Below are positions 9,570-63,323 of a stretch of 64,000 bases of DNA, piece after piece (position 1 is the stretch's first letter; each line of letters opens with the position of its first letter). This stretch comes from Salminus brasiliensis (lineage: Eukaryota; Chordata; Actinopteri; Characiformes; Bryconidae). A program made the translations under genes and the position numbers. Under the pieces are notes generated by a model. That model made no database searches. It was not told the origin of the DNA and saw only the letters and a list, made by a program, of their open reading frames with translations. The stretch lies in contig NC_132900.1 of the NCBI RefSeq assembly GCF_030463535.1, positions 27,689,956 to 27,753,955 of the forward strand, written 5' to 3'.

Positions 9570-9944
9570 TTAGGTCATAATTCCAATCAGTCCGTCATCG
9601 CCCGTGCCGTTGCCTTCAGGGCTATTGCACGCCGTTATGATGCCCAGGCCTAAATCCGCCAAGTCCTCCTGCATGCTGGTCGTCATCATCATTTTAGGCT
9701 CCAGGCGGTTACACAGCGTCCTGTAGGAGGGCAGGGGGTAGCCCAGTTCTCGCAGGAACTCGTACCCTTTGACTCCGACGGCGCAGCGGATCTTGCGGGC
9801 GGTCAGCACAGTGTTGTGAGACCACACGGCCCGCCGGGAGCGCTTGGCCAGGGTTAGGGCCCGGATCTGGTCCTCGTACAGAAACATCTGCAGTCCTTTT
9901 TCCATCTTGCTCAGCTTGTGCAGACGCTTCTTCATCTCCTCCGC
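9570..9944 (-). CDS. THAP gene, terminal exon (transposase-like helical region)
   Basis: 375 nt including the stop, after a TTTTGCCCTCCAG acceptor. It opens A-E-E-M-K-K-R-L-H-K-L, continuing the coiled coil of exon 3, then carries the conserved L-x-E-D-Q-I and W-S-H-N-T motifs and ends in a polar tail. Confidence 0.75.
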   Translation of the reverse strand, partial: AEEMKKRLHKLSKMEKGLQMFLYEDQIRALTLAKRSRRAVWSHNTVLTARKIRCAVGVKGYEFLRELGYPLPSYRTLCNRLEPKMMMTTSMQEDLADLGLGIITACNSPEGNGTGDDGLIGIMT

Positions 9945-12900
9945 CTGGAGGGCAAAACAGGGTAGAGCAGGGTTAAGCTACTTTTGAAGCGAGGAGGGAT
10001 GAGTGACTCATTGAAGTTGCCAATTAACCGTATACCATATCGGGAACCACATTTTAAATTACTTAAAAGGATAATTTCATACCCTGTTCCTCTCGTAATA
10101 CCTTTTTGTTACTGTACCTTTAAGGCTGATCTATGTAAATGATCACTGTTCTGACTGGATGCTAGGTATTGTTCCTTTTATAGCCCCGCCCATTTACACT
10201 GACATTTCTGCGCACTGAATGAGGCACAACACAGGGCAGCCAATGAGATATGTATCCCAAATATCAGTCTTAGTCCTAAGGTTCTTGTCATGTCTTAAGG
10301 GTACAGTAACAAAGAAATCTTGTTTAATTGAAAAAATAGGTTGGAAAAATGAAAAGGGTTAAAAAGTAAGCTAGGAAATGGTCATGAAAATTAATTATGA
10401 CTGTATTTGGTGCAAAAACATCATTAAGTGAAAATAATTTAAGACATACAATAAATGCAGGATACAGGCTCAATTCATTTAAATTAGGCTGTTTTTGCAG
10501 CTTAATTCTCATATATAAACCATATGAAAGTGGATAGTATATTTTTTACCTTCTTTTATTAAAGGATGTTGTTTTTGCATGATATGGGCCCTTTAAACCT
10601 CAACACTATTTAGTAATATTACCCTCTATTTCTTGTTAGCTACATTAGCCTAGTAGCTCTAGTGCTAAACAAGCCAAATCTTGACCAAAGCATTTGCCTA
10701 ATGAAATTCCTAATGTCAAGCCAAGCTTAGCACCCAGAAAAGGAGAGGGGTGTTTAAGTGGAATGCTCAAAAAGTGCGTAACGGAGATGAGATTCTGGTT
10801 ATATGCTTCCTTCCAAGCCATACAGAAACTGTGCCAGCACAGAGACACAAAAGTAATAAGCAAAGGGACGGCACTCAGCTAAACCGCTTCTATTTTTACT
10901 CTTTATTATGCTCCAACTCCCAGACGCAATTTGGCACCGGGTCTCTGTCTGCATGCGCTGGGCCCTGTCCTGTTTGTTCTAATGGAGGATGAAGTACTGG
11001 CCTCTCTCTGGAGCCGGGCCGTGTGCTGCTGCTGCTGCTCCAGCTGGCTTTTGTAGTGCTGGCAGAGGGAGCAGGGCCGCTCCTCCTCCGCTCTCTGCCG
11101 TTCTTCCTCCTCTGGGTCCACTCGCGGCTGCCGGCGGGCATAGCCGTGATCCCCGACATTCAAATCCTTCTCCGCTAAAATAACAAGACAGATATTAGAT
11201 GTTATTTCAGCCCTCTATTTCCAGATTCTGCAGTCCTCCTCTTAGAGTACCTTTGCTCTGCATATGTTAAAAATGACATATTGCTGTACTTGTACCCACT
11301 TTAAACTGAGAACAGGCTTGTTAATGGATGAACTGAAACAGGTGTGCTAAAGTATGGAAACACCAACATCTGCAGGGCTCGTACACTGCCTTGAGGTCCT
11401 TCCCGGAGGTAACAACAAGGATTTCCCAAAGCTGAGGACTGTGCAAAAGGATTGTTCCTCAGAATGTTCTATTGGGCTTAAGTTATCTAGCTAAATTCAG
11501 TATCATATCTTCCATTTTTGGGCTCCAGGGGGTTATTTCAGACAGTAGGACTTCTATATTTAGCCAGATAACTTAAGCTCCAATTCAAGCCTGTCCAATA
11601 GGAGAAGAGCTGATGAATGTTGCGATTGGACAGTCTCTAACTTTGGGCTTATTTTATCTGGCTACACTGAGATGGTCAAGGGGGGTTATTTCACAAAGCA
11701 GGATTTCTTATTTTATCCAGATATCTTAAGCCCAAAGTCAAGCCTGTCCAACAGGAGAAGAGCTGATGGATGTTGCAATTGGACAGTCTTGAACTTTGGG
11801 CTCAGGTTAGCAGGCTAAACTGAGAACTGGGAAATCCAGGGTGTTATTTCTCAGTTTAACAAGATAGCTTAAACCCAAAGTCAAGCCTGTCCAATAGGAG
11901 AAGAGCTGATGGATGTTCCAATTGAACAGTATAAGACTCTGGGCCAAAATGATCTGTCTGACTAAACTTAATAAAGCAGGATCTCTCAGTTTAGCCAGAT
12001 AACTATAACCCAAAGTTAGTCTGTGGAATAAGAGAAGAGCTATGGGACCATTCCCTCTGAATTGTGGGCAAAACTATTTGGCAAAGCTAGATAGTTTAAA
12101 CCCAAAGGCAAGCCTGTCCAATTAATTAAGAGCTGATGGTGCTAAGGTTATTTGTCTGGGTAAACTGAGAAATCTCTGGGGTTATAAATTGTATTTTTTC
12201 ACAAAGCAGGATCTCAGGTTAGCTAGACAGCTTAAGCCCAAAGTCAAGACCATCTAAAAAGAGAAGAGCCAAGACAAGACAGGGCAAGCATATTCACCAT
12301 AAGCGTTGGACACAGAATTTGGCCTCCGTCTTAACCCATCTGTGAAGTGAACACACAGAGTGACGGCGAGCAGCCATTGCTGCAGCGCCTGGGGAGCAGA
12401 GAGGGTGAAGGGCCTTGCTCAAGGGCCCAAAAGTGGCAGCTTTCCAAGTCCCGGGTATCGAACCCACAACCCAGTGCTCAAACCTCTCAGCTGCCGTCAA
12501 ACTTTTTTCTTAATTATTATTTGCTTGTTGAATTTTTCCTGTTATCCTCCCAACCTGGTACAGCTCGGCCCGGGATTTGAACCCCTGGCAGCCACAGTGG
12601 TAGTGCTTTGGACCACTGCGCCACTCGGACGGATGTTTCGATTGGACAGTCTTGAGATTAGGGCATTTCTGGCTAAACTGAGAAATCCAGGGGTTATGTC
12701 TTAGTTTAACAGGATAACTTAAGCCCAACTTCAAACATTTTACATTACATTTACAGCATTTAGCAGACGCTCTTATCCAGAGCGACTTACAAGGTTACTC
12801 GTATTACAGAGGTGGGCCAATGTAGTATTAGGAGTCTTGCCCAGGGACTCTTATTGGTGTAGCACAGCATAGTCACCCAAATCGGGAAATCGGGAATCGA

Positions 12901-13603
12901 ACCCCAGTCTCCCACATGGTGTTGCTGTAACGCAATGGCAGGTGGTGGTGGTGTTATCTGTTGCGCCACACCAACCACAACCAGATCCTGAAAACCTGTC
13001 CAATAAGAGGACACCTATGGGACGCTCCTATTGGACAGCCTTGCATTTTGGGCTCAAGTCATTTGGGAAGATCCTGAAATCCTGCAGAAGCAACACAGCT
13101 CCAAACGGGCAGCACATTTCCCCTGTAAGGATGCTGATCTGAGTACCTGGTTCATGCTTGAGTGGGAGGACAACATGAGGGGTGATGGGTGAGGGTGGGT
13201 CTGGTACATTGAACAGTGTGGGGATTGCATTGGGCTTCAGTTTCCTCCCCCCTGCTGGCGAGCGGGCGATTTCCTCAAACTGGCTCTCCTCGAAGTGATC
13301 CTGCAAGCCAAGACGTACTTTCAGCACATTTCTAATCCAGCATGGAGCCTCCACAATTTTCCAGACTCACCTGAACAGCTCTGACCAGCCCAGCCGGCTG
13401 GAGCTGCTGCTGCTACGAGTGCGGGGAGTTGACCGCTAGCTAGCTGCACTTGCCTGGCAGAGCCTGGAGCAGGGGGTGGGCACGAAGTCCCGGCGACAGT
13501 TCACAAGCCACCTCCTCATCCGCACCGGGTCTTTCGGGAAGCGAAAGAGCTGCTTCCCGATGGTCGTGGAGTTGGAGCAGTTTGGAGCAGAGCACCCACC
13601 CAT
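9570..13603 (-). CDS. THAP-domain protein with a P-element-transposase-like C-terminal segment
   Basis: THAP domains are zinc-coordinating, sequence-specific DNA-binding modules related to the DNA-binding domain of P-element transposase. Proposed coding exons are 13603-13454, 13300-13147, 11174-11002 and 9944-9570, giving 283 residues. The THAP domain spans residues 1-81: C4-x4-C9, F22-P23, W32 and C49-x2-H52, then L-K-P-N-A-I-P-T-L-F, the family's closing motif. Residues about 115-185 are charged and glutamine-rich, a likely coiled coil. The last exon (E-D-Q-I-R-A-L, V-W-S-H-N-T-V, G-Y-E-F-L-R-E-L-G-Y-P-L-P-S) resembles the region after the THAP domain in THAP9-type proteins. There is no RNase-H-like catalytic domain, so this is a regulator rather than an active transposase. 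It is divergent from toe1 with a shared promoter. The exon 3 donor is uncertain. I cannot assign a THAP number. Confidence 0.75.
9945..11001. other. THAP gene intron 3
   Basis: Non-coding and AT-rich. No repeat family or additional exon was recognised, although a short missing exon cannot be excluded given the unusual exon 3 donor. Confidence 0.45.
11002..11174 (-). CDS. THAP gene, exon 3 (linker and coiled coil)
   Basis: Starts after a TTATTTTAG acceptor, with phase matching exon 2. It encodes an E/R/Q-rich stretch with C-S-L-C and a Q-L-E-Q-Q-Q-Q run. The next exon needs a phase-0 donor. Nearby GT dinucleotides are mostly in phase 1, so the best phase-compatible site is GAG|GCCAGT, a GC donor. 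The exact end is therefore uncertain. Confidence 0.6.
11440..12280. repeat. Cluster of palindromic/tandem repeats (THAP intron 2)
   Basis: Units of roughly 150-200 bp alternate 'ggacagtcttgaactttggg' with 'gcccaaagtcaagcctgtcc', which are inverted relative to each other, and similarly 'ttatctggct' with 'agccagataa'. This is the pattern of a palindromic MITE inserted or amplified several times. Pieces recur near 12640-12730 and 13000-13070. Confidence 0.75.
12290..12500. repeat. Dispersed fish repeat fragment (also at 14865-15075)
   Basis: Contains 'ccatctgtgaagtgaacaca' and 'gggccttgctcaagggccc', followed by 'gtatcgaacccacaaccc'. This is a typical high-copy non-coding fish repeat, and it accounts for the open frames on both strands here. 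The second copy is part of the tandem duplication. Confidence 0.55.
12735..12975 (-). mobile_element. L2-type LINE 3' tail fragment with adjoining repeat (also at 15310-15550)
   Basis: On the plus strand it reads 'catttacagcatttagcaga' then 'cgctcttatccagagcgact', the complement of the tail seen at the 3' end of the LINE at 41140-41625. The following 'atcgggaatcgaaccccag' looks like another dispersed repeat joined to it. Confidence 0.6.
13147..13300 (-). CDS. THAP gene, exon 2 (second half of the THAP domain), duplication unit 1
   Basis: 154 nt from a GGCTTGCAG acceptor to a CAG|GTACTC donor. It supplies D-H-F, the zinc-binding histidine, then the G-R-K-L-K-P-N-A-I-P-T-L-F motif. This copy is next to exons 3-4 and so belongs to the working gene. 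Confidence 0.8.
13454..13603 (-). CDS. THAP gene, exon 1 (first half of the THAP domain), duplication unit 1
   Basis: 150 nt from ATG 13603, encoding M-G-G-C-S-A-P-N-C through R-L-C-Q. Only the junction CAG|GCAAGT (a GC donor) keeps frame with exon 2 and restores C-Q-D-H, the C-x2-H zinc ligand pair. Using the nearby GT would shift the frame. Confidence 0.8.
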
Positions 13604-14424
13604 GGCCTTAAAAACACACTAGTTTTGAGCTCGCGACCGAAGTGACGGGAGCCTGGCCGCTGGCTGCAGCCTCCGGCGCTACCGCGAACACGCAGCTAGC
13701 CTACGAGCAGCTCCTCGCTTCAATAGAAACAAACACAACCGCAACCAAAAAGGTGGCCAGTCTCCAACAACGACCCCGGCGAGGTAGATAATCGACCAGC
13801 ACCTCGAAATACGTAGAAATTTAGCCTAGAAAGAAGTGCAACCCGGAGTTGTTAGAGCCACAATGGCGCTTGTGTGTTTCCTCAGGACGGCCTCGGTGAC
13901 GCGGCGGCGCTGCGGGTCGGTTGTGGCGCTGCCTGCGTGAATTTATATACATATATAAAAAAAATACGATAACAGTTAAATACACAAATAATAATAAATA
14001 CTAAAATGCCATCTTATCAATCTGCACCTCCTTTTATTTCCATGTCCTTTATTTTTATTTTTGCCAAACTGGAGATCCAGCATTAGCTAGCGATCTGCTC
14101 AGGCGTTCACACGGAAGTCCACAGGCTCACATGGAGTAGTTCTGTAGTTGAGGCAGTTCTGTGGATTTTAGGGGAAAACGGAGGGTTTTAGACTTAATCT
14201 GAAGCACAGAAAGTGTTGAGAAGGAAAGACACTATCACCGGCTCACTGTAATAGTTTAGTAAAGCTGGAGAACAGCAGAGATCTGCCCGCTAGCTCTTTA
14301 GCTGCGTGTGGCTAACGCTCGTTAGCATCCCCTGCATGTTGCCCCGGGGGAAACACGGCGACTCCGGACGGTTCGGCGCTCAGAAATCAGAGCTTTTTGT
14401 TGTACCAGCGGGGAAAGACGAGAA
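13604..14424. promoter_or_regulatory. Bidirectional promoter region THAP/toe1, unit 1
   Basis: About 820 bp between the divergent THAP and toe1 start codons. It is GC- and CpG-rich near 13620-13940, including 'gtgacgcggcggcgctgcgg', which suggests a CpG-island promoter. No TATA box was seen at a sensible distance from either start. In this unit the THAP side drives the intact THAP gene and the toe1 side drives an orphan exon. Confidence 0.6.
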
Positions 14425-14541
14425 ATGGCGACCTCGTCCATGGTTGTACCGGTTATAGACGTGCAAAATGACAACTTTAAGGAGCTGTGGCCGTCCATGG
14501 TGCTCGGCTTTAAAACGTCTTCTTTCATTGCTGTGGACACG
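14425..14541 (+). pseudogene. toe1: Orphan toe1 exon 1 (duplication unit 1)
   Basis: Encodes the same 39 N-terminal residues as the active copy except Ala at position 2, and keeps an intact GTGAGG donor. It is separated from toe1 exon 2 by the whole of unit 2. It could still act as an alternative first exon by splicing over unit 2 to 19297, so 'orphan' describes position rather than proven inactivity. Confidence 0.7.
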
Positions 14542-15721
14542 GTGAGGACCCACTTCTCAAATGACCTCAGGATACACCTCAGCTAAACCTCACCCTGGTC
14601 AATATAGATGCACTATAGGGACAAAAGTATTGAGAATTGTGGGCAAAACTATTTGGCAAAGCTAGATAGTTTAAACCCAAAGGCAAGCCTGTCCAATTAA
14701 TTAAGAGCTGATGGTGCTAAGGTTATTTGTCTGGGTAAACTGAGAAATCTCTGGGGTTATAAATTTTATTTTTTCACAAAGCAGGATCTCAGGTTAGCTA
14801 GACAGCTTAAGCCCAAAGTCAAGACCATCTAAAAAGAGAAGAGCCAAGACAAGACAGGGCAAGCATATTCACCATAAGCGTTGGACAGAGAATTTGGCCT
14901 CCGTCTTAACCCATCTGTGAAGTGAACACACAGAGTGACGGCGAGCAGCCATTGCTGCAGCGCCTGGGGAGCAGAGAGGGTGAAGGGCCTTGCTCAAGGG
15001 CCCAAAAGTGGCAGCTTTCCAAGTCCCGGGTATCGAACCCACAACCCAGTGCTCAAACCTCTCAGCTGCCGTCAAACTTTTTTCTTAATTAATATTTGCT
15101 TGTTGAATTTTTCCTGTTATCCTCCCAACCTGGTACAGCTCGGCCCGGGATTTGAACCCCTGGCAGCCACAGTGGTAGTGCTTTGGACCACTGAGCCACT
15201 CGGACGGATGTTTCGATTGGACAATCTTGAGATTAGGGCATTTCTGGCTAAACTGAGAAATCCAGGGGTTATGTCTTAGTTTAACAGGATAACTTAAGCC
15301 CAACTTCAAACATTTTACATTACATTTACAGCATTTAGCAGACGCTCTTATCCAGAGCGACTTACAAGGTTACTCGTATTACAGAGGTGGGCCAATGTAG
15401 TATTAGGAGTCTTGCCCAGGGACTCTTATTGGTGTAGCACAGCATAGTCACCCAAATCGGGAAATCGGGAATCGAACCCCAGTCTCCCACATGGTGTTGC
15501 TGTAACGCAATGGCAGGTGGTGGTGGTGTTATCTGTTGCGCCACACCAACCACAACCAGATCCTGAAAACCTGTCCAATAAGAGGACACCTATGGGACGC
15601 TCCTATTGGACAGCCTTGCATTTTGGGCTCAAGTCATTTGGGAAGATCCTGAAATCCTGCAGAAGCAACACAGCTCCAAACGGGCAGCACATTTCCCCTG
15701 TAAGGATGCTGATCTGAGTAC

Positions 15722-15875
15722 CTGGTTCATGCTTGAGTGGGAGGACAACATGAGGGGTGATGGGTGAGGGTGGGTCTGGTACATTGAACAGTGTGGGGAT
15801 TGCATTGGGCTTCAGTTTCCTCCCCCCTGCTGGCGAGCGGGCGATTTCCTCAAACTGGCTCTCCTCGAAGTGATC
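15722..15875 (-). pseudogene. Orphan THAP exon 2 (duplication unit 2)
   Basis: Copy of 13300-13147 with both splice sites intact. If it is spliced to exon 3 at 11174, the resulting protein would be the same as from unit 1. Confidence 0.65.
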
Positions 15876-16028
15876 CTGCAAGCCAAGACGTACTTTCAGC
15901 ACATTTCTAATCCAGCATGGAGCCTCCACAATTTTCCAGACTCACCTGAACAGCTCTGACCAGCCCAGCCGGCTGGAGCTGCTGCTGCTACGAGTGCGGG
16001 GAGTTGACCGCTAGCTAGCTGCACTTGC

Positions 16029-16178
16029 CTGGCAGAGCCTGGAGCAGGGGGTGGGCACGAAGTCCCGGCGACAGTTCACAAGCCACCTCCTCATCCGCAC
16101 CGGGTCTTTCGGGAAGCGAAAGAGCTGCTTCCCGATGGTCGTGGAGTTGGAGCAGTTTGGAGCAGAGCACCCACCCAT
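16029..16178 (-). pseudogene. Orphan THAP exon 1 (duplication unit 2)
   Basis: Same sequence as 13603-13454, with ATG and the GC donor intact. A transcript from here would read through orphan exon 2 and then into unit 1. It could rejoin the THAP body only by splicing to 13300 or 11174. Confidence 0.7.
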
Positions 16179-16999
16179 GGCCTTAAAAACACACTAGTTT
16201 TGAGCTCGCGACCGAAGTGACGGGAGCCTGGCCGCTGGCTGCAGCCTCCGGCGCTACCGCGAACACGCAGCTAGCCTACGAGCAGCTCCTCGCTTCAATA
16301 GAAACAAACACAACCGCAACCAAAAAGGTGGCCAGTCTCCAACAACGACCCCGGCGAGGTAGATAATCGACCAGCACCTCGAAATACGTAGAAATTTAGC
16401 CTAGAAAGAAGTGCAACCCGGAGTTGTTAGAGCCACAATGGCGCTTGTGTGTTTCCTCAGGACGGCCTCGGTGACGCGGCGGCGCTGCGGGTCGGTTGTG
16501 GCGCTGCCTGCGTGAATTTATATACATATATAAAAAAAATACGATAACAGTTAAATACACAAATAATAATAAATACTAAAATGCCATCTTGTTAATTTGC
16601 ACCTCCTTTTATTTCCATGTCCTTTTTTTTTATTTTTGCCAAACTGGAGATCCAGCATTAGCTAGCGATCTGCTCAGGCGTTCACACGGAAGTCCACAGG
16701 CTCACATGGAGTAGTTCTGTAGTAGAGGCAGTTCTGTGGATTTTAGGGGAAAACGGAGGGTTTTAGACTTAATCTGAAGCACAGAAAGTGTTGAGAAGGA
16801 AAGACACTATCACCGGCTCACTGTAATAGTTTAGTAAAGCTGGAGAACAGCAGAGATCTGCCCGCTAGCTCTTTAGCTGCGTGTGGCTAACGCTCGTTAG
16901 CTTCCCCTGCATGTTGCCCCGGGGGAAACACGGCGACTCCGGACGGTTCGGCGCTCAGAAATCAGAGCTTTTTGTTGTACCAGCGGGGAAAGACGAGAA
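16179..16999. promoter_or_regulatory. Bidirectional promoter region THAP/toe1, unit 2
   Basis: Copy of the unit 1 promoter with a few substitutions, including three clustered changes near 16582-16588 and one each near 16626, 16724 and 16902. Here the toe1 side drives the intact gene and the THAP side drives orphan exons. Confidence 0.6.
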
Positions 17000-17116
17000 A
17001 TGACGACCTCGTCCATGGTTGTACCGGTTATAGACGTGCAAAATGACAACTTTAAGGAGCTGTGGCCGTCCATGGTGCTCGGCTTTAAAACGTCTTCTTT
17101 CATTGCTGTGGACACG
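17000..17116 (+). CDS. toe1: toe1 exon 1 (active copy, duplication unit 2)
   Basis: Encodes 39 residues ending F-I-A-V-D-T, with the first catalytic aspartate, before a GTGAGG donor in phase 0. It differs from the unit 1 copy by ATGG to ATGA, which changes Ala2 to Thr and replaces G at the +4 position after the start codon. Confidence 0.85.
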
Positions 17117-20100
17117 GTGAGGACCCACTTCTCAAATGACCTCAGGATACACCTCAGCTAAACCTCACCCTGGTCAATATAGATGCACTATAGGGACAAA
17201 AGTATTGAGACACTGCCAAGGGTCCAACCAAGGGTATTAGAAGAGTCTATCCTGCTTTAGTTGGGAGTAACTGTCCCTACTGTCCAGGGAGGAAGGCTTT
17301 CTGCTAGGTCACCACCTCAGCTCATCCCAAAAAGTACTGGATGGAGCACCAGCCATCAATCCAGAGAGCACAGGTCTTCTTCTGCTCTACACCTCCATCC
17401 ATGCTGGGGGGCTTTATACCCCTCTAGCCCACGCCTGGCATTAGGCAGCATGGCACATACTTCTCTATGGGGGCTAGACAAGCTGTTTGTGTGTTTGCAC
17501 ATCTGTGTCAGCAATGAGTGCATGCATTCATTAGATGGGGTGTCCACAAACATTTGGACATGTAGTGTATGTAGTGGCACAGATTAGCGTATGTATATAA
17601 AATGTAGGTATTAATGTCATGTGAAGTGATTAATGGATTTAACAGCTCCTTTGTAGAAGATACAATGAGGCGTAGTCTCGGGAAATATTGGAAAGAAGAG
17701 GTTTTTAAGTCTAAGTCTCAGCATTTTTTGGTTTTTCTAACTTTTCACCGCATTTCTGTGTTATTTCCACTTGTTATTTTCAACTTCTGAAAAGCTGGTC
17801 ATCCAGAAGAACACGCACCCTATGCTGGTAACACTGGCTGCGGAGCCCCTGACCAGCTGAGGGCTGTATATTGGCAAAAACCTGGTGATATGTCTCACAA
17901 TACGGGAGTCAGAATTCTTTGTGATCCTGTAAGCAAGATGATTTATTGTAATTAAAAAAAAATCTAATTTTAGGAAAAAAGCAGATTTATTTGCATAAAA
18001 TCTAAGTATAAATAAAACAGTGCGATCTGTGGCTAGAGCTCAACACTGAAATCTAGTGGTCAGGATTGGCTGCCATCAATCTTTACATGCAAGCTATTAA
18101 TACACAGTCTATACTGAGCTTTTGAGAATTAGTATTAAAAACATAGGGCCCTATTTTAGAGATCCATTTAGTGAGCCGTCAACCGTGCACCATACAGCTT
18201 AATTTAGGGCGTGTCTGTGTGTCTCTGCTGTCGTAACGATCGAAACACTCAAAAGTCACGTACTAAGTCTCTTTATCAATAATGGGTGTGTTTTGGGCGT
18301 AGCATGCAATAAACCAATCAGCGTGTCCCTCATCGTTCCCTTTAAGAGCCAGCTGCGGTCTGACTTTGCTGGGTTGCTATTTCAGTGGTGTAAAGCGTGG
18401 TGGGGTGTACGAGCGTCGGGCTGCACGCGCCTGTGTTGACAATTCACTGTCAAGATAGCACTGAACATTTCACTGCTGACGTCTGCCTAGGTTGTTTTCA
18501 GTCAGTGGAGCTCCTCCTGTGTTTTCCATTGCTGAGATGCGTCGCAATACGCCAGAAACTGACCTGTACGCCCCTCATTTTGAGACCACTGCGTCCATCG
18601 GCTTAGATATATTCACAGGCACTGCTGCTATATGTACGATGCAGGCGGAAGACATGAGAATAGACTGCTGGCGGGGTGTAAGATAGGGCCCGATATCATG
18701 ATACTTCGATAAAGCTAAACCATCAAACCCAAACATACCCTTTACTGGTGAAGGCCAAAGCTAGGCAGGCTCGATATACACGCCTCCATCACCTTCAAAT
18801 AGCGTGATGATGACCAATCTTCAAACCCATTGATAGTAAAAATAACGAAATTTTGCAGCTACATGTTCAGAACCTGTATGTAGGCTTCAGGCTGGGCTGC
18901 ACCACGACTTGCCTAGCACTAACACTGCCAGAAGTGCTTTGGCTGAGGTGTTTGTGCCGAGTATGACGAAACTCAGCGCCTCCTCGAGCACCTCCATATC
19001 TGAGAAAAGCTGTGAAAAAGTCCTTTTCTACTGGATATGACAGAATATTTACCCACATGTCGATTCACACAGGATTAATATAAGCTGAGGTTATTTTTAC
19101 AGCTTGTTTTACAGAAGGTAAAATGTGCCAGAATCTTTTCTGATCCTTTACTGATCTTTAATGACTGACACGGCACCGAAGGCACTGAGAACCTCTGCTA
19201 GTCCCTTATGAATAGGGCTTAAGTCAAACCTAATGTCCTACTACCAGAACCTTTACCTGACCGGCCCTAACTGCTGTATCTCCTCCTCTGTTGTAGGAAC
19301 TGAGCGGCCTTGGAGCGAGGAAAGCTCTTCTTGCAGAGTGAGTGAGTTTCAGTAAAGGCTACTGAGAGCACTGATGATGAATGACACAATGAATGTTTAC
19401 ATGTTCGTGTGCATCATAAAGGTGAGTTGTTGTTTTTTTTTCTCTTCAGGTCAGTTGAAGATCGGTACAAAGCGATATGCCATGCCGCTCGCACCCGCTC
19501 AATACTGTCTCTGGGGATTGCCTGCTATAAGAAGCTTGATGAGAAAGTAAGTCTTCTGACTTGGCAGACTTCCCTGCTTCCTTTCTGTATACCTTGCATT
19601 AAAGGCAGGTCTTTGATCTCTGTTTCCAGGCCGACAGCACATACCTGGTCCAGGTTTACAACCTGACGCTGTTGTGCTCGGAGGAGTACATCATCGAGCC
19701 TCAGTCCGTGCAGTTCCTCGTACAGCATGGGTTCGACTTCAACAAGCAGTATGCTCAAGGCGTCCCGTATAACAAGGGCAACGATAAGGTGAGACCTCCA
19801 CTATATACCCGTATGTTTGTGGACACGTCTTCTCAGGAATGCATTTCGCTGCTGTGTTGCAAGCTGCACATGCGCACACACACAGCTTGTCTAGTCCCCG
19901 TAGAAGAGTATTGCCAAAAGAATAGGACTCCATGGAACTGATTGGAACCATGCCGAATGTCAGGTGTGGGCATATGTCTGTGTTTTCTGGAATGATGGTT
20001 GGGGCTCCATTTAATACTTGTGGTGTGAGTTGGGGATGAGGTGAGGTAGAGATCGTCCAGCGTTATCCTGACCGCACTAATGCTGTTTTATCTCTGAATG

Positions 20101-22642
20101 CAATCAAATCCTCACAGTAAGACTCCACAATCTAGTAGAAAGCCAGCTACTGCAACAAAAGCAGAATAAACTTTTTTTTAAAATCCCTAAATGAGCAGTT
20201 GTCCCAATACTTTTGTCCATAGAAGTATCTTATTAGTAAGTATGGTTTCCATCCGCAGTGTCTAGCATTTGATTGACTCTGACTGTTGTAGGCGTTAATC
20301 ACGATGCCTGATCCTCAAATGATAAAAGTCATTTTACATTTTTATTGTGGCTAATATATATATATATATATATAGCCCCCATAGCAAGCACTTAGCAACG
20401 CCATAGCAACCACTTGGAACAGAGTATGAACCACTTTAGAAACTACCTGCAATACCTAGGTAGCAACTGCTTATCCTCAACTAAGCAACCATCTGGGTCA
20501 CCTTAGCAACACCATAGCACCGTAATGTATGCAGGACAATGATCTTTGTTACATGTCTGAGGAAGTGGCATAGCAACCACCTTGAATATCATAGCAACCA
20601 CTTGGAATATAATCACAAAATCAATGCAGTTGAATAGGCCGCTGAATTATTCAATGTTTCATTTTTCACAAGGGAGGAGATGCCCAAGGAGTAAATATGC
20701 GCACCCTGTTTGTGGAGCTCCTGAGGGCGAACAAGCCTCTGGTGGTCCATAACGGCCTGATCGACATGGTGTTCCTGTATCAGTGCTTCTATGCCCATCT
20801 GCCCGAGAAGCTGGGGACGTTCATAGCAGACCTGTCTCAGATGTTCCCTGCTGGCATCTACGACACCAAGTACGCCACGGAATACGAGCTGCGTCTCACC
20901 GCGTCCTACCTGGAGTACGCCTATAAAAAGTGGTACGTTCACAAAACAGGTGCCGAGTTACTGAGAACGACCTGCAACACCGAACAGTTATCGTTAACGA
21001 ATCTGCTGAAATGTCTTCACAGTAAGCTGGACAATGCCAGATCCGTGGAGGCGGGTTCGAGTGGACCTGGGTTGTTCCTGGAGTTTTGTAACTACACCGG
21101 ACGCCTGCAGAGCTACGTGGACTACAGGCCTTGCTTAGACAGTCAGAGCCATGATGGCAGCCTGAACATCTGCATTCAGTTCTCTGTGAGTTGCCCTCAC
21201 AAGGATGCTTCCTGAGACGTGTGCTGGACACTGATCTTCATTACACGTCTGATAAAATGGCATAGCAACCACTTGGAAGAGTATAGCAACCACCTTACAA
21301 TCCCTTTAGAAACGACCTGGGATACCATAGAAACTGCTTATCTATACCTGAGCAACCACCTAGCAACTCCTTTATCAGCTACCTAGAATACTATAGAAAT
21401 TGCAACGCCCAAGCAACTACTTGGGATACCATAGCAAGCACTTAGCAACGCCATAGCAACCACTTGGAACAGAGTATGAACCACTTTAGAAACTACCTGC
21501 AGTACCTAGGTAGCAACTGCTTATCCTCACCTAAGCAACCATTTGGGTCACCTTAGCAACACCATAGCACCGTAATGTATGCAGGACACTGATCTTTGTT
21601 ACATGTCTGAGGAAGTGGCATAGCAACCACCTTGGTGAAATACTTAACTAACTACCTGGAATATCATAGCAACCACCTTTAACCCCTTGGAAAACTACCT
21701 GGGATACCATAGCAACTGCTTAAATACACCTGAGCAACCACTTAGCAACATCATTTGGGAATTGCTTAAGCTGTGCAGAGTTTGCTTTACTGTTTCAAGT
21801 GGTTGCTATGGTATCCTAAGTGGTTGCTTAGGTATAGATGAGCAGTTATTATTATTATTATTATTATTCCCTGCTGTCCCTTCTAAAAGTGATCAGTGGG
21901 TGTGTTCCCATTGTCTTCAGCATTTCTGTCCTCACAGTCGTTCTCTGTTGGGTTGCTTTGCCAGGCTTATGGATGGTGTCCCAATGGCTCTCAGTGCCCC
22001 ATGTCCCACGACACGGACCTCATCATTCAGCAGGACGAGAAAACCAGAGAGGACAAGAGGAAAAAGCGGAAGCGCAGGAAGAAGCAGAAGGCTGCCCAGC
22101 AACTGCAGGAGGACAGTTCACCCAAAGAGAAGAGGGCTCACCTGGATGACATGGAGCAAGAGCAGGAGGCTCCGGATGAAGAGGTTGCTGAAACCATGGC
22201 GACAGCATCCGAGCACCAGACCAGAGGGGAGGAGGTACAAGCGACTTGCGATACTGACCCTTCACGGACAGACGGGGCAGCTGAGAACGGAGGCGGGGAT
22301 TCAGCTCCTGCTGCCGACAAAAACGCACGGCAGGCGTCTAAAGGCCCAGCGGGAGCCAGAGAGAGGAAGGCGGAGGGAGGAACTCACAGAGCAGGCTTCG
22401 ATGCCTTCATGACTGGGTACATTTTTGCTTTTGCCAGCATGCTAAAGTCGGAAGAGTCTTCTGCACAGCCTGGAATACCCGGCTGTGCGAACAAACTGTA
22501 TCTGAGCGGCAAGTCCGTCCCGCTACACGTGGTCAAAAGCACCTTCTCTAAGTCCTCAAAGGCTCATGTGCACAAGATGGAGCAGGTGTGGGGGAAAGGC
22601 TCCTGTGGTAACAGTGCGGTTAAAGCAGAGGGAACTGCATAA
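17000..22642 (+). CDS. toe1: Target of EGR1 protein 1 (TOE1), DEDD deadenylase
   Basis: TOE1 is a nuclear 3' exonuclease of the CAF1/PARN-like DEDD family that trims the 3' tails of small nuclear RNAs in Cajal bodies. Exons are 17000-17116, 19297-19337, 19450-19546, 19630-19788, 20673-20932, 21023-21185 and 21965-22642. All phases agree and give 504 residues, close to the human length of about 510. Metal-binding acidic residues are visible: D38 and E40 (A-V-D-T-E-L-S, split across exons 1/2), D169 (H-N-G-L-I-D) and D202 (I-Y-D-T-K-Y). A CCCH zinc finger follows (C275-x8-C284-x5-C290-x3-H294), split across exons 6/7, then a basic nuclear-localisation run (K310-K321). The conserved C-terminal block is [12 protein letters not shown] and Y-L-S-G-K. 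The start was chosen by homology and by its in-phase donor. It converges with tesk2. Confidence 0.93.
17191..17573. mobile_element. MITE, 'GGACAAAAGTATTG / TTTGTGGACA' family, copy 1
   Basis: Starts 'agggacaaaagtattgaga' and ends 'ggggtgtccacaaacatttg'. It shares its interior words ('tggatggagcacca', 'cattaggcagcatgg') with 34312-34800. Its first bases overlap the right breakpoint of the tandem duplication. It lies in toe1 intron 1. Confidence 0.75.
18146..18691. mobile_element. MITE with GGGCCC...-type terminal inverted repeats, copy 2
   Basis: Begins 'gggccctattttaga' and ends 'gtaagatagggccc', a 13-bp inverted pair with one or two mismatches. It is about 546 bp and more complete than the copy at 2356-2806. 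It lies in toe1 intron 1 and has no coding capacity. Confidence 0.75.
19297..19337 (+). CDS. toe1: toe1 exon 2
   Basis: A 41-nt exon, [13 protein letters not shown], after a TTGTAG acceptor and before a GTGAGT donor. It carries catalytic E40. Confidence 0.9.
19450..19546 (+). CDS. toe1: toe1 exon 3
   Basis: 97 nt, CTCTTCAG acceptor and GTAAGT donor. It encodes [18 protein letters not shown], a block highly conserved in TOE1. Confidence 0.93.
19630..19788 (+). CDS. toe1: toe1 exon 4
   Basis: 159 nt, phase 0 at both ends (TTTCCAG acceptor, GTGAGA donor). It includes [13 protein letters not shown] and the K-G-N-D-K ending. Confidence 0.93.
19803..20222. mobile_element. MITE, 'GGACAAAAGTATTG / TTTGTGGACA' family, copy 2
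   Basis: Reads 'gtatgtttgtggacac' at the left and 'gtcccaatacttttgtcc' at the right, so it is inverted relative to copy 1. It lies in toe1 intron 4. Confidence 0.75.
20354..20374. repeat. (TA)n microsatellite
   Basis: About ten TA units at the left edge of the CAACCAC array in toe1 intron 4. Confidence 0.9.
20378..20612 (+). repeat. CAACCAC-type degenerate tandem repeat in toe1 intron 4
   Basis: Words such as 'catagcaaccacttggaac' and 'ctacctgcaatacctaggta' repeat at about 20-bp spacing. A closely similar block (from 'gcaagcacttagcaacgcc') occurs at 21434-21640, showing local duplication between introns 4 and 6. Confidence 0.85.
20673..20932 (+). CDS. toe1: toe1 exon 5
   Basis: 260 nt after a TTTTTCACAAG acceptor. 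It carries the second and third conserved aspartates (H-N-G-L-I-D, I-Y-D-T-K-Y). It ends A-Y-K-K plus two bases of a cysteine codon at a TG|GTACGT donor. Confidence 0.88.
20933..21022 (+). other. toe1: Stop-free 90-nt intron in toe1 (possible exitron)
   Basis: Bounded by GTACGT and TTCACAG. Its length is a multiple of three and the frame stays open, so retention would replace one cysteine with 31 residues. Splicing restores K-K-C-K-L, which fits TOE1 better. See the findings. Confidence 0.7.
21023..21185 (+). CDS. toe1: toe1 exon 6
   Basis: 163 nt from a TTCACAG acceptor to a TCT|GTGAGT donor. It encodes L-E-F-C-N-Y and Y-V-D-Y-R-P-C-L and ends I-C-I-Q-F-S, which supplies the first zinc-finger cysteine. 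Confidence 0.88.
21240..21838 (+). repeat. CAACCAC-type degenerate tandem repeat in toe1 intron 6
   Basis: Fills most of intron 6. The last 40 bases switch to the reverse orientation ('agtggttgctatggtatcc'), creating an inverted junction near 21798. Confidence 0.85.
21846..21868. repeat. (ATT)n microsatellite
   Basis: About seven or eight ATT units in toe1 intron 6. Confidence 0.9.
21965..22642 (+). CDS. toe1: toe1 exon 7 (zinc finger, NLS, C-terminus)
   Basis: 678 nt including TAA, after a GCTTTGCCAG acceptor. It starts A-Y-G-W-C-P-N-G and completes the CCCH finger, then K/R-rich residues 310-321, an acidic low-complexity linker, and the conserved C-terminal block. Confidence 0.92.
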
Positions 22643-22668
22643 AGACGTTTGTTTTGTTTTTTTGAGTA

Positions 22669-22674
22669 AATAAA
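22669..22674 (+). terminator. toe1: toe1 polyadenylation signal
   Basis: AATAAA 27 bases after the stop codon, implying a very short 3' UTR. Confidence 0.75.
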
Positions 22675-23559
22675 GAAGAAATTTGATTTATTAATATTGT
22701 TATAAGGGCTGTTGTTTGCTTTGCTGCATTATACCCTAATACTGATGTTGCTGAAGACTGCAGTAAGCAGATGTGCCCTCACACCATTTATGATATTTTG
22801 AGCCCCCTTACCAAGCTCAGTTCCAGGCAAGTAAAAGGGCACCAGTCAAAAGTGTAGCTGAAGGTTTTTCTAATTCCTATTTAAAAATGTAAGACTAAAT
22901 CAACACAGTGTGGCCTTCACCTTCACTTCACCCTCAAATAACAGCTACAGAATCATGCCGATTCTCCACTGACTGTAACAGGGGAGAATGGCCTCTCTGT
23001 CATTGCCACGCCGAGCCGAAACACGGCTACTGCACTATGGAACTTGGGTGGAGCTTCGTCAGACCTCTCAGCAGAACTACGTAACCAGTCATATTAGTGT
23101 CATCCTGTGTCAAAAACCTTGGTTACCCACAGTTCTCTGCACACATACCACACGAAAAAGCCAAGCCTCCAGAGTTCGTTTAAAAATGTTAGATCGTAGG
23201 ACAGCCCTACCTCCAGCATAGGCTTTGGAATAGCCAACTCTATTGGTATCTATTACATCAATAATTAAGGCAGAGTTACTGAGGCAGAGTTGCATATCCA
23301 CCTCTAGGGGGCGTACTAGTCAGGTTTGGAACAGCAAAAGTGTAAATTATCAGTATGATTTTTTTTTTTTCTTTTGTTTAAACAAAAGGCTTCAGACAGT
23401 ATAGCTTAATGTTTGTAGATGATTAAAAATGATGAGTTTGCTCACAATTTTAGGATTCATTGATGCATCTGAATTTCTCCTGCGGTCATTAAGACAACCC
23501 CGTGTCACAGAGATGAAAGAGAGGTACAAATGAACAAACTCGACAATAAAATCGTTAAA
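22675..23559. other. Spacer between convergent toe1 and tesk2 3' ends
   Basis: Non-coding, with no repeat or RNA gene recognised. A minus-strand AATAAA at 22692-22687 offers a distal alternative 3' end for tesk2, which would bring its transcript to within 20 bases of the toe1 polyadenylation signal. Confidence 0.45.
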
Positions 23560-23565
23560 TTTATT
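23560..23565 (-). terminator. tesk2: Candidate tesk2 polyadenylation signal
   Basis: TTTATT on the plus strand (AATAAA on the minus), about 1.39 kb after the tesk2 stop codon, giving a plausible 3' UTR length. Confidence 0.45.
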
Positions 23566-24485
23566 TTTAAACAGACTAAAACAAAGACACAAACAAACAC
23601 ACATGCATTTATACATTTAAAAAAATCTGAAGCCATATAAATGGAAAAAGTAGGTCCTGATCTGTCTTTGGTAGAAATATACATCTCTGATTCCATTACA
23701 AATCTAAACAGCCAGGAAAAGGAAAAATAAGTCAGAAAGCGGCGAAAACAGCATTATTTACATAAATCTGTGTTTGTCATAATGTATTAATAATAAGCTG
23801 TACACACACACACAGTTGACCAGCAGGGAAGTAAGACATAGTAAAATCACTGTTTCTTCCTCATAAATATCAAAATAGATCATCTCTATAAAACTAGTCT
23901 GCTTCAGTTACACTTATTGCATAGAAATGTAGTGAGAGGAAAAAAAATTACAATATTTAAACCATTAAGTTCTTCCTCCATTTCAAGTGCAATTTACATG
24001 TTTTAAGTAGTTACAGACATGGACTTTTCAGAAAAGATCCAGCTGGTGCTTCACTCAGAAGAAGTCGCTCGGCCTTTCGGAGGAGGAGGAGGGGATGTGA
24101 GAGCAGCTCTCGCGTAAAAACGGGTGAACCGATTGTGGGAATGGAATGTCTCGGGTTTGTTTTCCAGCTAATTTTGCTTGTGCTAGACTTCTACTAACAA
24201 ATCCACTGCAGCAATACGCTGTGAATACGGACGAAATCCAGACAAAAGGGCCTGTTTACAATTAGCAAAACCCAGGTTATATACACAAACACAGAATCTG
24301 TGGATTTGCGACGTAGAAGAAAGTGTCTAACCGGTTAAGGAGAACATAGTGCTGCTCGCAAGGGTGTTAAAATACATTCAAGCAAACGTGTGGATTGTAA
24401 TAATAACCCTATGTAACATTAGCCCTATGTAGCGTTAGCTTATTTCTTCTCCTTCTTTGTGAGCCCTTGATGGTCTGTTAGGTCA

Positions 24486-24950: not shown

Positions 24951-63323
<38,373 letters not shown>

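Follow-up and report, generated by a model that had tools for sequence, protein, structure and literature searches.

A stretch of 64,000 nucleotides from the fish Salminus brasiliensis (27:27689956-27753955 of an assembly of 1,066,335,885 bases, 1.066 Gb, in 103 contigs; hereafter the window) contains two adjacent direct copies of a segment that carries the starts of two divergently oriented genes, one encoding a THAP-domain protein and the other the CAF1-type deadenylase TOE1. In our view, this arrangement is likely to be genuine and to reflect a recent tandem duplication, 2,575 bp long, that took place in the germline and copied the starts of the divergent gene pair.

Structure and gene content of the tandem pair

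Comparison of the window with itself revealed a gapless direct tandem pair, in which positions 12059-14635 match positions 14634-17210 at an offset of 2575 (maximal match, 2577 bp). The two copies, units A and B, differ by 12 substitutions and no insertions or deletions (indels), corresponding to 99.53% identity, i.e., 0.47% divergence. Adjacent direct copies, high identity and a single sharp junction, the features of a recent germline tandem duplication, are thus all present. The units and the coding features that they contain or adjoin are as follows.

12060..14634, unit A, left copy of the 2,575-bp tandem duplication, from the self-comparison
14635..17209, unit B, right copy, from the self-comparison; units A and B are the two full-length matches in the assembly
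14634..14635, junction between the units, with 2 bp (GA) of microhomology common to both outer ends
13454..13603, minus strand, THAP exon 1 coding part, unit A (the copy adjoining the rest of the gene), 150 nt
13147..13300, minus strand, THAP exon 2, unit A, 154 nt
16029..16178, minus strand, THAP exon 1 coding part, unit B, identical to that of unit A
15722..15875, minus strand, THAP exon 2, unit B, identical to that of unit A
9570..11174, minus strand, downstream THAP exons, outside the duplication (third exon from 11174; later coding exon 9570-9944)
14425..14541, plus strand, TOE1 exon 1 coding part, unit A (Met-Ala-Thr...), 117 nt, donor ACG/GTGAGG
17000..17116, plus strand, TOE1 exon 1 coding part, unit B (Met-Thr-Thr...), the copy adjoining the rest of the gene
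19297-19337, 19450-19546, 19630-19788, 20673-21185 and 21965-22641, then stop, plus strand, TOE1 exons 2-6, outside the duplication
13604..14424 (unit A) and 16179-16999 (unit B), 821 bp between the start codons, presumed promoter interval

The 12 differences (in unit A: 12191, 12313, 12517, 12619, 12649, 14016, 14018, 14022, 14051, 14149, 14327 and 14428) cluster near the unit ends, with five in 12059-12649 and seven in 14016-14635, and they leave between them a perfect core of 1366 bp (12650-14015) that is identical in both units. When 12 differences were placed at random, a clean run as long as this arose in 141 of 100000 placements, a test that was chosen post hoc. Most of the core is non-coding, and it includes 650 bp of intron and repeat that would be expected to be free to vary; at the overall rate, the chance of finding no change in those 650 bp is about 0.05. 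As a separate observation, three of the 12 differences are transitions that fall inside 7 bp (14016-14022).

Units A and B have the same splice sites at the duplicated THAP exons, and intron 1 (13301-13453 in unit A) is apparently of the GC-AG type in each (CAG/GCAAGT ... TTGCAG/GAT). Joined to the third exon, which starts at 11174, exons 1 and 2 form one open frame; no GT donor was found that would join this third exon to the 9570-9944 exon in an open frame, and a further exon or an unusual donor may lie between them. The predicted protein contains a THAP domain (Pfam PF05485, residues 4-80, 67.3 bits against a cut-off of 23.9, E 2.1e-18). It matched the structures of THAP2, THAP1 and THAP11, and no NCBIfam model scored above cut-off for it.

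The TOE1 exon 1 donor is likewise the same in both units, and the sole coding difference between them falls in TOE1 codon 2, which is GCG (Ala) in unit A and ACG (Thr) in unit B. Either copy of exon 1, when joined to exons 2-6, yields an open 534-aa protein with the CAF1 domain (a ribonuclease domain, Pfam PF04857, E 1.7e-68) and the CCCH zinc finger by which TOE1 is recognized, the latter scoring slightly under the Pfam cut-off (20.2 vs 20.5 bits). In structure comparisons, the TOE1 zinc-finger structure 2fc6 was matched (E 1.6e-6), ranking after two PARN entries (E 2.1e-9 and 6.9e-9); a piece of exon 5 on its own gave no match. The name TOE1 rests on the 2fc6 match, the domain order and general knowledge of the family. 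Exon 5 is flanked by a pair of similar repeats (20379-20613 and 21429-21667; 240 bp, 93.75%, offset about 1.05 kb).

An earlier reading of the letters of this DNA (the sequence-only reading) had placed the duplication at 12060-17209, which is correct to within the 2-bp GA microhomology. Its constant offset of 2,575 with about a dozen substitutions agrees with the self-comparison, and the exon coordinates confirm that each unit holds THAP exons 1-2 and toe1 exon 1. The sequence also supports its proposal of a recent direct tandem duplication that keeps the frames of both gene starts, and the positions and strands of the exons bear out the second, inward-pointing pair of starts that it described as having been created. 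That the coding parts are intact in both copies holds for frames and splice sites, with the correction that one of the differences, in TOE1 codon 2, is coding. Promoter redundancy, extra antisense transcription and polymorphic copy number, which the sequence-only reading put forward as possible outcomes, may be further consequences, and its main alternative, an assembly artefact joining two haplotypes, looks less likely than a true duplication (see below). The promoter had also been called GC-rich, which is true for part of the interval and not for the rest: in 200-bp windows starting at 13460, 13660, 13860, 14060 and 14260, GC content is 0.61, 0.54, 0.40, 0.46 and 0.56, respectively (range 0.40-0.61). 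In the same windows, the ratio of observed to expected CpG is 0.76, 1.05, 1.5, 0.49 and 1.05, a profile that would suit a shared promoter, though GC is uneven across the interval.

Junction, copy number and alternative origins

The window contains no undetermined base (N), at the junction or elsewhere. The neighbourhood was sampled over 294 kb, made up of the window with 200 kb of sequence on its left and 30 kb on its right. This sample is a small part of one chromosome, and its only undetermined bases form a run of 65 N, perhaps a small gap, located about 67 kb from the junction. Three repeats lie at or within the unit boundaries.

17186..17567, element resembling a miniature inverted-repeat transposable element (MITE), with imperfect inverted ends of ~28 bp; limits set by eye
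11528..12059, diverged repeat block of ~150-bp repeats with inverted segments; the left breakpoint is at the edge of this block
12750..12803, minus strand, 3' element of a UnaL2-type long interspersed nuclear element (LINE) in a repeat resembling a short interspersed nuclear element (SINE), THAP intron 2 (Rfam RF00436, 63 bits, E 7.1e-11)

The right breakpoint falls 24-25 bp inside the left inverted end of the MITE-like element, diverged relatives of whose inner part occur at 34518-34793 and 38585-38805. Unit A retains just the left end of this element (14611-14635), and the duplication is therefore younger than the MITE-like insertion. Since the two breakpoints lie in different repeats, and the outer ends and the junction share GA only, these features point towards end joining or template switching, rather than ordinary homologous exchange, as the probable source of the junction. 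The duplication would thus have been made by microhomology-mediated joining, or by replication template switching, between two unrelated repeats that share 2 bp.

A search of the assembly with the whole unit listed 46 matches; as 40 of 6410 candidates were scored, partial matches are undercounted. Among the matches listed, two are full-length, both in the window, and the other 44 are partial, most of them to the SINE-like repeat with the UnaL2-type LINE tail (~12739-12979). The part of the unit from 13900 onward has only two matches in the assembly, units A and B. The UnaL2-type LINE 3' element, which has a second copy at 15325-15378 and many genomic copies at about 90%, was the only structured RNA to reach the Rfam threshold in 11000-24000, once per unit; no tRNA genes were found in the window. 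Within the 294 kb, and with no offset filter applied, no two sequences other than units A and B reach 97% identity over 1 kb or more; when the length limit is lowered to 500 bp, the sole further pair is an array with a 70-bp period. A 264-kb comparison shows tandem arrays, one of which has a 465-bp period at 96%. In self-BLAST of the window, the other pairs of at least 95% over at least 150 bp all come from one minisatellite, and no second pair of the unit-like kind was found.

From these results we infer that the fish itself probably carries the duplication. A true duplication is supported by the single gapless pair, which differs over its 2577 bp by 12 substitutions and by no indel; by the absence of N from the window, the single run in the 294 kb being distant; by the lack of any comparable pair in the 294 kb, which argues that the neighbourhood is not full of assembly errors of this kind; by the presence in the window of both full-length matches among those listed; and by the retention of splice sites and frames of the duplicated exons in both units. 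It is also supported by the base changes, since unit B has the derived base at two of the three sites that could be compared with other repeat copies. At 12313, the unit A base is carried by eight of 11 related repeats (taken from 47 matches listed, two of which are units A and B), another base by three and the unit B base by none; at 12649, two further local copies of the same motif carry the unit A base. Both sites thus look derived in unit B. At 12619, two of three other copies of a loose motif carry the unit B base and one a third base, the unit A base being found in none. The sites on the right side of the unit fall in the part that has no match other than units A and B.

The points against a true duplication in the animal are these. 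The 0.47% divergence is compatible with two haplotypes of one fish, for which it is a plausible distance; gene conversion could account for the perfect 1366-bp core flanked by diverged ends, but so could a mosaic of haplotypes; and each breakpoint is in a repeat, the kind of sequence at which assemblies can also break. A mutation shower near the junction that produced all 12 differences was considered and is not claimed.

The uneven distribution of the differences has a possible explanation that is a variant of true duplication, with which its probability overlaps: unequal exchange between two different haplotypes, in which case the 12 differences would be old allelic ones that do not date the event, and the identity of the core may stem from subsequent gene conversion. 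Differences at both ends around a perfect core that includes 650 bp of intron and repeat are what such an exchange could leave behind, but there are only 12 differences, their clustering was noticed post hoc, and an unchanged 650 bp is not a very rare outcome at the overall rate (chance about 0.05, as given above). We regard this variant as a tentative one, less likely than not.

Unlikely, in our judgement, is a false heterotype duplication, that is, two haplotypes of a single-copy locus placed end to end by the assembler or by gap filling. The substitution-only divergence of 0.47%, the uneven spread of the differences along the unit and the breakpoints in repeats would all fit it. However, the junction has no gap, and a gapless join in a read-overlap assembly normally requires a read that holds the junction; furthermore, the 294 kb hold no second pair that is as long as 1 kb and as similar as 97%, and the lack of any indel among the 12 differences is a further, weak point on the same side. 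Excerpts of a study of such errors (PMC9516828) describe them as widespread and in some cases joined by wrong gap filling. They take the form of adjacent near-identical copies with haplotype-like divergence that sometimes lie inside a gene, and in this they resemble the present pair. According to the same excerpts, the intervening region is most often an assembly gap, and the marks of false duplications are half read depth, gaps, discordant linked reads and one-copy k-mers. Units A and B, in contrast, are joined directly; most false duplications have a gap between the copies, though it is not a strict requirement.

Chance repetition is ruled out by 2577 bp at 99.53%, and a dispersed family of whole-unit copies by the two full-length copies among the 46 matches listed and the restriction of the part from 13900 onward to this locus.

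Predicted transcripts and other features of the window

In a true duplication, unit A would lead into the rest of the THAP gene and unit B into the rest of TOE1; as the two genes run in opposite directions, outward from the units, neither would be cut. The starts left on the inside, those of TOE1 in unit A and of THAP in unit B, face each other and would be a by-product. Judging from the order of the exons, these two starts are not equivalent: TOE1 of unit A would be unobstructed, whereas THAP of unit B would meet an extra exon 2. For a TOE1 transcript from unit A, the next known TOE1 acceptor is that of exon 2; since a first exon has no acceptor, the transcript could splice directly to exon 2, passing over unit B, and could give a near-normal mRNA for a normal protein that begins with Met-Ala. 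A THAP transcript from unit B would use its own exon 2 and then the exon 2 acceptor of unit A. Because exon 2 is 154 nt long, inclusion of both copies (154 nt each) shifts the frame, giving eight residues and then a stop, and skipping either copy restores the normal THAP protein in a frame check. As this stop lies upstream of later exons, RNA with a doubled exon 2 would be expected to be degraded unless one copy is skipped. Between their start codons (14425-16178), the transcripts from the two inner starts would be antisense to each other for 1.75 kb or more.

A rather remote prospect is that a real duplication would raise one gene and dampen the other, by adding a productive TOE1 start together with a frameshifted, decay-bound THAP transcript that also crosses the TOE1 start of unit A in the antisense direction. 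Hexamers resembling poly(A) signals lie on both inner routes (plus strand, 16568, 17951, 18011, 18134 and 18308; minus strand, 14033, 14048, 14054 and 14765), and they weigh against these predictions in that they could end either inner transcript early; such hexamers are also frequent by chance.

Similarly doubtful, with a marginally better chance, is the idea that selection maintains the additional pair of starts for a function, through TOE1 dosage or through regulation by the overlapping inward transcripts. Neither unit has lost its promoter interval, start codons or splice sites, and partial accounts of other systems offer precedents in the novel expression from gene-part-shuffling tandem duplications in flies (PMC5460883) and the altered isoform from an HK1 promoter duplication (PMC12374552); nevertheless, the units are too similar for their conservation to be meaningful, and the perfect core is mostly non-coding. 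Selection as the sole cause of that core is ruled out, 650 of its bases being intron and repeat.

Elsewhere in the window, positions 42874-43977 hold a minisatellite in which a 33-bp unit recurs ~33 times at a similarity of about 95%, and positions 47974-48951 an A/T-rich tandem array with nested periods, the clearest of about 155 bp. Diverged tandem repeats (28584-29449; ~21-22 bp within 97-118 bp) lie next to a minus-strand open frame (29387-29647) that resembles a kinase but scores under the Pfam kinase cut-off. This frame could be tesk2, which we take to be a neighbour of toe1 in other vertebrates.

Comparable duplications and significance

In the dual-promoter class of tandem duplication, as usually defined, the copied segment holds the starts of two divergent genes and so forms a convergent inner pair; the present locus, with THAP exons 1-2 on the minus strand and TOE1 exon 1 on the plus strand of each unit, has this form. 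Tandem duplications of gene starts have been described as a class, of which this arrangement is a further case. The introduction of a study of segregating tandem duplications in Drosophila yakuba and simulans names dual promoter genes among the products of tandem duplication (PMC4503668). As far as that introduction describes them, those genes likewise stem from small tandem duplications that copy gene starts and bring promoters into new surroundings; the present case differs in being a vertebrate-like locus with introns, in which neither parent gene is cut. The promoter duplications reported for HK1 (PMC12374552) and TERT (PMC9481613) are likewise tandem duplications at or near a promoter; their effects on expression were measured, whereas our locus is known from sequence alone and its presumed promoter is common to two genes. 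Raised expression is reported for tandem duplications in flies as well, but, in the part of the account at hand, for whole genes (PMC5742068). Literature searches limited to open-licence papers, and judged by title and the start of the abstract, found no report of a THAP-TOE1 duplication among the entries listed.

Either way, the result is a local one and leaves the general picture unchanged. If the duplication is false, it would serve as a warning case of a gapless false duplication within chromosome-scale sequence. If it is real, it would show cleanly, and at a young age, how the start region common to two divergent genes can be doubled with neither gene being cut, and the asymmetry in exon phase between its two inner starts yields a direct prediction at the level of RNA.

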